A stretch of 30,905 bases of DNA from a virus: the IMG/VR virus record IMGVR_UViG_3300049893_000422, positions 1 through 30,905 of that record; one strand, 5' to 3'. Both the position numbers and the translations under genes were made by a program. Positions 3,113 through 30,905 of the stretch are shown in pieces. The notes under the pieces were generated by a model that ran no database searches, was not told the DNA's origin, and saw nothing but the letters and a program-made list of their open reading frames with translations. Positions within the stretch are counted from its first letter, which is position 1, and every line of letters starts with the position of its first letter.

Positions 3113-4116
3113 CTTGGTGTTGAGCTTAATAGTTTACCTGATCGCTTTGTGGCCTTTCTTTTCCTTCCAGTAGCCCCACATTTACACCTGAACATCTCAT
3201 AGACATTCATAGTAGTGTGGTATAGTTTGCCCATCATTGTTAACTCTGAGCCTCCACAGGTAGGGCATCTTTCCTTATCATCTAAGATATGAAGTCCGAT
3301 ATTCGGGTGAGGTTTAATAAAAGGCCTCATGGTTAAATAGGTCTGTTCGTGTATTCTGACATCGTTAATGTTATATTTCTCCATCTTCTTTAAGGCTGAT
3401 TCATCGCCATTAAAGCACCCCCTCCATAGCTCCATGTCGGTGTGGGTTTTTTGAGGTAATTTAAGAACCTTATTTATATAGTCTAGTTTGTTAGAAGTGA
3501 AGTTAAAATGCTTCTTAGCACTCTTTAAGGTGTCTATTGATATATACGGAAGTGGAGGGTTTAAACCGTGTATTAAAGCCCTTGTATTGATTCTTGGAAG
3601 GTCGAACCTGTCCCCGTTGTGGGTTACGACTATATCAGCATCGTTGAGCATATCTAATAGTGATTTAACTATCCTTTTGTCATTATTAGACTGCGCTTCT
3701 TTAGGGGTAACTCTTGCTGAATAAACCTTAGTATCGAACAGCCATTTAGCAGCCCATGTAAGAATAAACCAATCCGATCTAATATTCTCTGTGCTTATGT
3801 TCTGATTCCATATCCCCCAAATATTAGCTAATAAAGGGGCTGTTTCAATGTCAAGAATTAGAATCCTGCCATAAACTTCTTCCTGTCTGTATTCGGCTTT
3901 TACCGTGTTGTAAGTTAGTTTCCTTAGATAGGTCTTATCCCTTAATTCTTTCCGGCTGGATTCTCCGTTGCTCCCTGTGTAATACTTCACAGAGCCTCTT
4001 GCGGAGTTTAGGTTTTTAAAATGCCCATCCTTTAAAAGGAGTTTAGCTATCTGTAATTTTGTTAGAGTATCTCCGTACTTTTCGAGATACTTTTTTGTAA
4101 TTTCATTTTTTGCCAT
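3109..4116 (-). CDS. DEDDy 3'-5' exonuclease with zinc ribbon (RNase H-like)
   Basis: 335 aa. The first 60 residues are helical, with SARGSVKYYTG, and probably bind DNA. The nuclease core follows: Exo I at LDIET (Asp89, Glu91), Exo II at HNGDRFD (Asn167, Asp172), and Exo III at YNIND (Tyr248, Asp252), which marks the DEDDy subclass shared with DNA polymerase proofreading domains and the YprB-like ribonuclease H-like group. A C-terminal zinc ribbon has Cys284, Cys287, Cys311 and Cys313, and a basic tail follows. All catalytic residues are present. No DNA polymerase domain is attached. It sits after the holin at the end of the late operon, an unusual place for a replication or repair nuclease. 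Substrate is unknown. Confidence 0.8.
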   Translation of the reverse strand: MAKNEITKKYLEKYGDTLTKLQIAKLLLKDGHFKNLNSARGSVKYYTGSNGESSRKELRDKTYLRKLTYNTVKAEYRQEEVYGRILILDIETAPLLANIWGIWNQNISTENIRSDWFILTWAAKWLFDTKVYSARVTPKEAQSNNDKRIVKSLLDMLNDADIVVTHNGDRFDLPRINTRALIHGLNPPLPYISIDTLKSAKKHFNFTSNKLDYINKVLKLPQKTHTDMELWRGCFNGDESALKKMEKYNINDVRIHEQTYLTMRPFIKPHPNIGLHILDDKERCPTCGGSELTMMGKLYHTTMNVYEMFRCKCGATGRKRKATKRSGKLLSSTPR

Positions 4117-4638: not shown

Positions 4639-4663
4639 AATTATTGATTATATTTGAGTGTAC

Positions 4664-4710
4664 GACATCCCCCCTTCCCATTAGAACAGGGCGCTTAGGG
4701 GTGTCTTTTT
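4664..4710 (+). terminator. Hairpin with T-run, terminator-like on the plus strand
   Basis: GACATCCCC at 4664-4672 pairs with GGGGTGTC at 4698-4705 with one bulged base. An inner CCC/GGG stem follows, and the structure ends in TTTTT at 4706-4710 on the plus strand. The flanking genes are on the minus strand, so it would stop opposing transcription. Read the other way it is only a hairpin between the endolysin and holin genes. Confidence 0.5.
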
Positions 4711-29121: not shown

Positions 29122-29377
29122 TAATAGGAATGTTTAGTTTCTTAAATAGGACATATATTAAGTATCCGGCAAGACTTGACAGCGCACACCAAATAAAAGA
29201 ATAAGGAGTGAAGCCTATATAAATCTGATAGGCTAACATCATCCAAAAGGATAGACACTTAACACAGTCGAAAGGCTTTAATCCCCGTAGCTGAAAAGCC
29301 CTCCTGAATGCTTGTGGTATTCCTGTTACGTTGGTAAACCAAAAGCTAACTATCGGTATTAGTATTAGTTCATTCAT
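29114..29377 (-). CDS. DUF1360-like small membrane protein, 87 aa
   Basis: Three hydrophobic stretches: residues 2-14, 44-57 (LSFWMMLAYQIYIGF) and 61-77 (IWCALSSLAGYLIYVLF). The FDCVKCLSFWMML segment recalls the short CxxC membrane proteins of the DUF1360 type. Function unknown. It overlaps the end of the sigma-like gene by 8 bases. Confidence 0.6.
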   Translation of the reverse strand: MNELILIPIVSFWFTNVTGIPQAFRRAFQLRGLKPFDCVKCLSFWMMLAYQIYIGFTPYSFIWCALSSLAGYLIYVLFKKLNIPIND

Positions 29378-29951
29378 CTTTTAAAAATTTAACTGCCCTT
29401 TCTTTAAATTGTTTTATCGCCTTTCTAATAGCATAGTAATTAATGTCTGAAGCTTTGGCGAACTCTGAAACGTTCTTAGATTCACAAACAGCATATTTAA
29501 ATATCCTGGCTTTATACATTCGGTTCTTATCATCGTGTTCACATTCACTGTCTATAAAGTCCTTAGCCCTTTTGTACTCGTAGTCAATCTTAATATCGTA
29601 GTCGGGTTCTGGTCGGCTGAAAATCTCCTCAAACACCCTACACTCCCCATCCTCAGTATATTGGACTGGTATCTCATAAGTCGATGAGTATTGAAATAAA
29701 GGGGAGGTACGCCCATTCTCATATCTCTTATGCCTGTTTCGAGTGTTCCAAATGTTATGGATGATACCCACGCAATAAACATCGACAAACATATTATCCC
29801 GATATTCAATAGGGTCTTTAGTTTCAAGTAAAGCCTTGATAAATTCGCTATGTAAGTCCTCTGCAAGTGCCTTGTTATTAGTTAATTTCAGGCATAATTG
29901 CATATACTTACCATTCCTAAAAACCTGCTCAGCTAGTCTATGATTGTCCAA
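29370..29951 (-). CDS. Sigma-70 family (ECF-like) protein
   Basis: 193 aa from a TTG start at 29951; an ATG at 29903 would remove the first 16 residues. The region CLKLTNNKALAEDLHSEFIK is the sigma-2 form AEDLxQE, and the C-terminus VSEFAKASDINYYAIRKAIK resembles the sigma-4 helix-turn-helix that reads the -33 box. The spacer between them is longer than in standard ECF factors and includes an acidic stretch (EDGECRVFEEIFSRPEPDYD). It may redirect host polymerase to phage genes (inference). Confidence 0.65.
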   Translation of the reverse strand: MDNHRLAEQVFRNGKYMQLCLKLTNNKALAEDLHSEFIKALLETKDPIEYRDNMFVDVYCVGIIHNIWNTRNRHKRYENGRTSPLFQYSSTYEIPVQYTEDGECRVFEEIFSRPEPDYDIKIDYEYKRAKDFIDSECEHDDKNRMYKARIFKYAVCESKNVSEFAKASDINYYAIRKAIKQFKERAVKFLKDE

Positions 29952-30047: not shown

Positions 30048-30078
30048 TTTGTAGTCAGGGATTAATGTAGTTACTTTG
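30048..30078 (+). promoter_or_regulatory. Rightward promoter for the replication gene
   Basis: TTTG at 30048-30051, 19 bases, then TTACTTTG at 30071-30078 (one mismatch to TAnnTTTG). An alternative perfect -7 box, TAATTTTG, is at 30044-30051 but lacks a -33 partner. The region 29952-30244 otherwise holds no gene: it is AT-rich with the divergent promoter, the leader structure at 30090-30187 and a short AT-rich leader to the ATG. Confidence 0.5.
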
Positions 30079-30089
30079 ATGCCATCATG

Positions 30090-30187
30090 CGCCAAGACAC
30101 AATTAATAAACTTATTTAGATATTACCCCTGATGTACGTCTCTGTGGCTTGGCGGTCAAATTACGTACTGATGGGGTATAATTTTTT
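30090..30187 (+). ncRNA. Structured leader: hairpin with pseudoknot and T-run
   Basis: TACCCC (30124-30129) pairs with GGGGTA (30173-30178), and GTACGT (30134-30139) with ACGTAC (30163-30168). Between the two stems TGAT faces TGAT, which allows tandem G·A pairs. The 23-base loop contains GTGGCTTGGCG (30144-30154), which pairs with upstream CGCCAAGACAC (30090-30100) at 10 of 11 positions, giving a pseudoknot. TTTTTT follows at 30182. It fits a regulatory leader or attenuator before the replication gene. Confidence 0.55.
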
Positions 30188-30244: not shown

Positions 30245-30905
30245 ATGAAGAAAGATACTTACTATTTTTCCCACGATGCCAACGCTAAGGATGACCCTAA
30301 ATGTATGCACCTTATAGATGACCTCGGTATGGAGGGTTACGGTATTTTTTGGGTACTTATTGAAACATTAAGAAACCAACCAGACTATAAATGTCCTTTA
30401 TCAATCCTTAAAAGCATAGCAAGACAGTACAACACCACGTTACCAAAAGTAGAAGTAGTTGTTAAAAATTACGGATTATTCACGATTGATGATGAAACAT
30501 TCTTTTTCTCTGAAAGCCTGTTAAGAAGGATGCAAATAGCTGATTCTAAAAGGAATATGTTAAGTGATGCTGGTAAAAAGGGTAACACTAAACGGTGGAA
30601 TTTATCGCCACCCGATCGCCACCCGATCGCCACCCAATCGCAATTAAAGGAAAGGAAAGTAAAGGAAATTAAATTAAAAGAAAATAAAATAAATGAAAAT
30701 AAAGAAGAACAAAGGTTACCCCTCCCTTTTTCATCTATCGAGTTTAGTAATATTTGGGATATACTGTTAAAACAACCAAAGTGGAAGAACAAGACACACC
30801 ACGCATTACAGCTAAACCTAAAGAAGTTAGCCGAACACGATGAGCTAACAGCCATTAAAATGATTGAGAACACAATTTCCGGCGGCTGGCAGGGAATATT
30901 CCAAT
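30245..30905 (+). CDS. DUF4373-type replication protein, partial at right end
   Basis: 220 codons are present and the frame is open to the edge. The N-terminus YYFSHDANAKDDPKCMHLID, then GMEGYGIFWVLIETLR and YKCPLSILKSIARQ, matches the DUF4373 (Lin1244/Lin1753 N-terminal) domain found in phage replication initiator-like proteins, with a winged-helix pattern to about residue 100. A charged, Lys/Glu-rich linker follows, then a second domain (IWDILLKQPKWKNKTHHAL; MIENTISGGWQGIF) of the type seen at the end of DnaD-like proteins. It is probably the first gene of the replication operon. Confidence 0.8.
   Translation, partial: MKKDTYYFSHDANAKDDPKCMHLIDDLGMEGYGIFWVLIETLRNQPDYKCPLSILKSIARQYNTTLPKVEVVVKNYGLFTIDDETFFFSESLLRRMQIADSKRNMLSDAGKKGNTKRWNLSPPDRHPIATQSQLKERKVKEIKLKENKINENKEEQRLPLPFSSIEFSNIWDILLKQPKWKNKTHHALQLNLKKLAEHDELTAIKMIENTISGGWQGIFQ

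Follow-up and report, generated by a model that had tools for sequence, protein, structure and literature searches.

A terminator-like leader with a loop-held hairpin, predicted to control replication genes in uncultivated Bacteroidota-type phages

Introduction

What role does a terminator-like hairpin play between a promoter and the gene that initiates viral DNA replication? The question arises at one end of the genome of an uncultivated Bacteroidota-type virus, for which the whole IMG/VR record (IMGVR_UViG_3300049893_000422, 30,905 bases) was analysed and is referred to here as the window. A hairpin and T-run placed between a promoter and a gene are the typical appearance of an attenuator. 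A preliminary description of this locus had proposed a switch in which an upstream segment holds or releases the fold or, equally, folded DNA within a replication origin. The analysis presented here describes the element in the window, its counterparts in related phages and the modes of control that its architecture may serve.

Results

Architecture of the leader in the window

All parts of the element are present in the window, in the order promoter-like boxes, upstream segment, two-part hairpin, T6 and replication-initiation gene:

30048..30051, + strand: -33-like promoter box TTTG, 19 nt before the -7-like element
30071..30078, + strand: -7-like promoter element TTACTTTG, of the Bacteroidota TAnnTTTG type, 7/8 matched
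30090..30101, + strand: upstream pairing segment a, CGCCAAGACACA, with 11/12 Watson-Crick pairs to 30143-30154
30108..30117, + strand: linker AAACTTATTT, resembling the AAACTTATT linker of class A relatives
30124..30129, + strand: outer stem P2a, 5' arm TACCCC, partner 30173-30178
30130..30133, + strand: internal loop TGAT, 5' side, tandem G.A possible
30134..30139, + strand: inner stem P2b, 5' arm GTACGT, partner 30163-30168
30143..30154, + strand: loop segment a', TGTGGCTTGGCG, partner 30090-30101
30163..30168, + strand: inner stem P2b, 3' arm ACGTAC, partner 30134-30139
30169..30172, + strand: internal loop TGAT, 3' side
30173..30178, + strand: outer stem P2a, 3' arm GGGGTA, partner 30124-30129
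30182..30187, + strand: T-run TTTTTT, terminator-like tail
30245..30905, + strand: gene for a replication initiation protein (Lin1244_N, PF14297; phrog_2562), truncated at the record end

TTTG and TTACTTTG have the spacing and form of the Bacteroidota promoter consensus, and the predicted transcript start lies at about 30083-30086. The complete hairpin spans 30124-30178. Its two-part 6 + 6 bp stem, split by TGAT/TGAT and followed by TTTTTT, lies where the preliminary description had placed it, and the pairing of the loop with the upstream segment is slightly better than the 10 of 11 positions first reported. CUGAUG occurs on both sides of the internal loop of this hairpin.

The initiator frame runs on in sense from the record end into window position 1. 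When the two ends are joined, it reaches a sensible stop at 226 aa, overlapping the ATG of the next gene at 13, which makes a complete, circularly permuted genome probable. After joining, the early operon comprises rep, a 113-aa protein, NinG, an MT-A70 methyltransferase and small genes. Divergent from the leader, 29370-29951 on the minus strand encodes a 193-aa protein without a Pfam or PHROG match; its C-terminus is HTH-like by eye, and it is perhaps a candidate regulator.

Taken by itself, the pattern in the window is moderately unlikely. The stem-loop fold has a z of -2.6 (3/200 shuffles), while the stability of the whole leader is not unusual (z -0.59). The combined pattern score is attained in 25/5000 dinucleotide shuffles, and the 11/12 loop match in 36/10,000. 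A simple terminator scan missed the hairpin because its loop is long. The decisive evidence for the proposed element is sequence comparison with related phages.

Recurrence of the architecture in related phages

For this comparison, 356 loci encoding Lin1244_N relatives were gathered. The detector sought a hairpin followed by a T-run, which was a requirement, and pairing of the hairpin loop with an upstream segment; it was positive on 73/174 clustered leaders, mostly at 0-3/100 shuffles. The same architecture is present in 79/203 distinct leaders of related genes, compared with 26/2018 control upstreams taken from other open frames, and the best control matches include more examples of the same element before other genes. 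The 79 leaders hold 35 distinct 7-base loop pairings, in which 6.74 of 7 positions match between a segment and its own partner, compared with 2.35 when the partner comes from another leader. In 52 of the 61 leaders with at most 3/100 shuffles, a TAn(1-3)TTTG promoter is found directly upstream, and the start codon follows the hairpin by 7-15 nt in 85/89 relatives. Of the comparison of linker length with helix length, only these stem-to-AUG distances are used, since promoter bases had entered the predicted 5' hairpin. Related viruses by the hundreds keep the design and change the letters, and it is therefore probable that the element is a widespread and so far undescribed means of controlling viral DNA replication.

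Each phage contig carries about one copy of the element (20 contigs, 26-37 kb), and this copy lies where the replication operon begins, at its first gene. That gene is the initiator itself or encodes a primase, a ParB-like or KilA-N-like protein or a methyltransferase (names partly from N-terminal sequence). Among the wider set of relatives, the element precedes initiators of the Lin1244_N, HTH_36, DUF1376-like, DUF6291, DnaD-like and DnaA-like families. Since one RNA is common to several initiator families, autoregulation by the Rep protein, as a common regulator of the element, is unlikely. HNH and homing endonuclease genes are also found among the downstream genes.

Several loci depart from this arrangement. 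At L481 and L407, which carry the class A pattern described below, homing (GIY-YIG) and HNH endonuclease genes lie directly behind the element, as if mobile genes insert at the leader or carry it. L196 has a second copy at 3951-4015, before an HNH-type gene, with another copy at rep; L207 has a second copy at about 4640-4699 besides the one at rep. The pairing in these second copies (GTGAGAT/ATCTCAC) differs from that in the rep copy. L329 has, in one contig and away from the initiator, two hairpin-plus-loop pairings that score strongly (47.5 and 60.5), one with its T-run near 475 and one before an ORF at 2004.

Covariation and strand of action

In the largest class, class A, a short hairpin at the 5' end carries a loop of 7 nt. 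The linker behind it ends in AAACTTATT or in similar AT-rich sequence and leads to a terminator-like hairpin, in which two stems enclose an internal region rich in purines. The 7-nt loop of this second hairpin is wholly complementary to the first loop. A DNA pattern of the class A frame matched at least 120 contigs; among the matches listed, element length is 63-67 only, loop pairing reaches at least 6 bp in 119/120, and 0-2 nt separate the pattern from the gene start.

Covariation was assessed in 22 class A leaders using a MAFFT alignment that was not fitted to structure. In this alignment, 98.1% of cells are paired, and the covariation score is 0.763, against 0.18 for shuffled and at most 0.19 for slid alignments; none of 500 shuffles attained any of five measures. 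Two-sided changes occur at 18/22 base pairs. Covariation among related phages, the check that the preliminary description had put forward, is seen in both the stems and the long-range pairing.

Among standard and near-standard cells of the stems, G·U occurs 18 times and A·C once. Function as double-stranded DNA, or on either strand, predicts equal numbers of the two, and the element therefore acts as RNA of the coding (plus, sense) strand. This imbalance and the constant position after the promoter disfavour folded origin DNA, the second of the two functions first suggested. Separately, in class A leaders such as L255 and L266, RUGAUGA faces CUGA across the internal region of the terminator hairpin. 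Judged by these motifs, this region resembles parts of a box C/D kink-turn, which is a candidate only.

Placement of the window within the group

Its architecture, promoter, order, linker and gene place the window, on sequence grounds, among the kissing-terminator leaders. It is a divergent member and not a class A one. The class A covariance model R1 does not match at the element (best score in the window 6.9 bits, elsewhere), and the same model mostly fails on other classes, with three weak matches outside the window. The class A 5' hairpin is absent: by inspection, no stem flanks 30090-30101 in the transcribed part. Compared with class A, the window has a longer pairing (11/12), the TGAT/TGAT internal loop and a larger loop. 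Its hairpin also lies 66 nt from the start codon, in contrast to the short gap in nearly all relatives.

An exact DNA pattern with both window stems gave no match. The pattern derived from the window was limited to the outer stem, TGAT/TGAT and the T-run, and it found one contig in the IMG/VR collection, L519. Here CCCCTGAT..TGATGGGG recurs 12 nt before an initiator gene of another family (phrog_5810), and the apical loop GUUGCA is complementary to an upstream AUGCAAC. The score of L519 alone is weak (113/2000), so its position before an initiator is the telling part.

Searches beyond the phage contigs

The tyrosine integrase PF00589 was found in none of 31 contigs. The class A model, run on genomes from the phylum of one Bacteroidota MAG (1/395) and from the family of the same MAG (1/396), matched in both cases the starting MAG itself; about 790 Bacteroidota-phylum genomes thus hold no class A element beyond it. 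Given these two results, the element-bearing phages are apparently non-integrating. Among isolated phages and plasmids, no close relatives of the initiators were found, only distant ones in Firmicutes and Porphyromonas, and the leader DNA gave only short AT-rich matches to phage records. No Rfam 15 family matches at its gathering score, and nothing credible appears at relaxed thresholds.

Discussion

Observations on the relatives cover sequence, structure, covariation, RNA strand, position and gene context; from these, termination by the hairpin, an effect of the pairing on read-through and the direction of that effect are predicted. On balance, we lean towards a loop-paired, promoter-proximal intrinsic terminator that heads the replication operon, with the loop pairing setting read-through. 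RNA polymerase would start near 30083-30086 and transcribe segment a, then the hairpin with its T-run. Acting as an intrinsic terminator close to the promoter, the hairpin would release a transcript of about 100 nt, and the replication genes would stay untranscribed. Because loop a' is complementary to segment a, the emerging loop could engage the 5' end of its own transcript while the terminator stem is still incomplete; in class A relatives, this pairing would be a 7-bp kissing contact between two hairpin loops. Capture of the loop may alter the speed or stability of terminator closing and so set the share of polymerases that read through, the favoured direction being a delayed terminator and more read-through.

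This mechanism differs from that of a classical attenuator, which was rejected: the upstream segment pairs with the loop and not with the arms, and an antisense promoter is not conserved. The upstream sequence pairs with the two terminator arms at the level of chance (4.07 vs 4.10 and 4.37 vs 4.20 bp), whereas its pairing with the loop exceeds chance (7.4 vs 5.3 bp). The arms thus have no upstream partner beyond chance, so there is no classical antiterminator, and the loop pairing is sterically compatible with a closed hairpin. Both points also weigh against the favoured reading, as do, in the window, the wide gap before the start codon, the missing class A 5' hairpin and the unmatched class A model, and the modest scores of the window and L519 taken singly. 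Antisense promoters are depleted, with 3/94 against 9.7 expected and none in the window. The preliminary description is therefore supported where it sees an RNA leader that lies before a replication gene and combines a terminator-like hairpin with long-range pairing of the pseudoknot type; a classical switch, with the upstream segment competing for the stem, is not supported, and origin DNA is disfavoured.

The same features could instead serve control of translation, as in the repZ leader of plasmid ColIb-P9; the loop-held hairpin would mask the site where ribosomes land on the initiator mRNA, and its opening would admit ribosomes. The placement of the AUG 7-15 nt behind the stem in most relatives fits such a role, but the stem in the window, 66 nt from the AUG, is too far away to cover it. 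Nor does translational control need a T-run, yet all accepted members have one (the detector required it), and an antisense RNA signal is absent; we hold this reading to be a minor possibility. Somewhat more doubtful is action in trans, in which segment a of a terminated leader would pair with loop a' of leaders from other genomes and raise termination, so that the initiator falls as copies accumulate, in the manner of the cI RNA of satellite phage P4 or the c4 RNA of P1/P7. Several features are consistent with it: self-complementary segments on the same strand ahead of replication genes, a single element in each genome, and fully paired 7-nt loops like those of plasmid kissing antisense RNAs. 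The 35 genome-specific pairings on a conserved architecture are what a specificity determinant would show. Intramolecular pairing should, however, outcompete pairing in trans, and the Rfam c4 model finds no match in the window or the tested leaders. The lack of an integrase in the 31 contigs and of class A elements in the roughly 790 genomes also makes prophage immunity unlikely. A one-RNA circuit that senses copy number or superinfection through a genome-specific kissing code, with no antisense gene or protein, is doubtful to the same degree; in it, the loop of each terminated leader would pair with leaders from other genome copies and switch off initiator production.

A stable small RNA or 5' protective structure that acts elsewhere, for which the place before the initiator is merely convenient, seems improbable. 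The element does have its own promoter and a terminator-like end, and it is highly structured with a start codon right behind it. Its tight link to the first replication-operon genes of several families nevertheless argues for control of the downstream gene, and it has no long conserved unpaired stretch usable as a target seed. That the hairpin in the window is a functionless product of chance is highly improbable. The shuffle result for the window alone (25/5000) and the ordinary stability of the whole leader would allow it, but the pattern is common at homologous leaders (79/203), the promoter, order and linker agree with those of relatives, and the window-derived pattern finds another initiator gene.

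Among known systems, the P4 cI and P1-P7 c4 RNAs (RF01695) share a same-strand leader with self-complementary segments that ends transcription before replication or antirepressor genes. Termination in P4 is Rho-dependent and serves lysogenic immunity. In contrast, the leaders described here have an intrinsic-terminator-like hairpin with loop-loop pairing, occur in phages without a detected integrase and have no Rfam match. P4 cI RNA work is cited in passages of PMC10362022 and PMC4825925, and c4 RNA is listed in a passage of PMC2864571. Attenuators of the pT181/pIP501 type share attenuation of a rep initiator by a terminator in its leader. Such attenuators depend on an antisense RNA and on pairing between an upstream segment and one arm of the terminator, whereas here antisense promoters are under-represented and the arms lack an upstream partner.

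The ColIb-P9 repZ leader shares loop-upstream pairing before a replication initiator, and in this pseudoknot leader translation is under the control of an antisense RNA (PMC8383071 and the works it cites). The present element differs in the T-run after its hairpin and in the absence of an antisense signal; a pseudoknot adjoining the ribosome binding site is not found in the window, where the hairpin lies 66 nt from the start codon, while most relatives have 7-15 nt. ColE1 RNA I/RNA II share with class A relatives two 7-nt loops paired over their full length, but there a sense RNA meets an antisense RNA, whereas here the pairing lies inside one RNA. The Rfam trpB motif (RF04312) also has two hairpins plus a terminator tail. 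Its match at L053 reached 36 bits against a cut-off of 59, and it is absent from the other tested leaders; the likeness is one of overall shape only, and this candidate was rejected. The element is not described in the open literature searched, a body that leaves most subscription journals outside its reach. It is best regarded as a new family within a known kind of RNA, the promoter-proximal structured leaders, with an unusual grip on the terminator.

These leaders appear to form an undescribed RNA family that is common in uncultivated Bacteroidota-type phages and lies between the promoter and initiators of several families. If the favoured mechanism is true, these phages would share a portable RNA device that times DNA replication independently of the initiator protein, and a terminator would be open to regulation through its loop rather than its stem.
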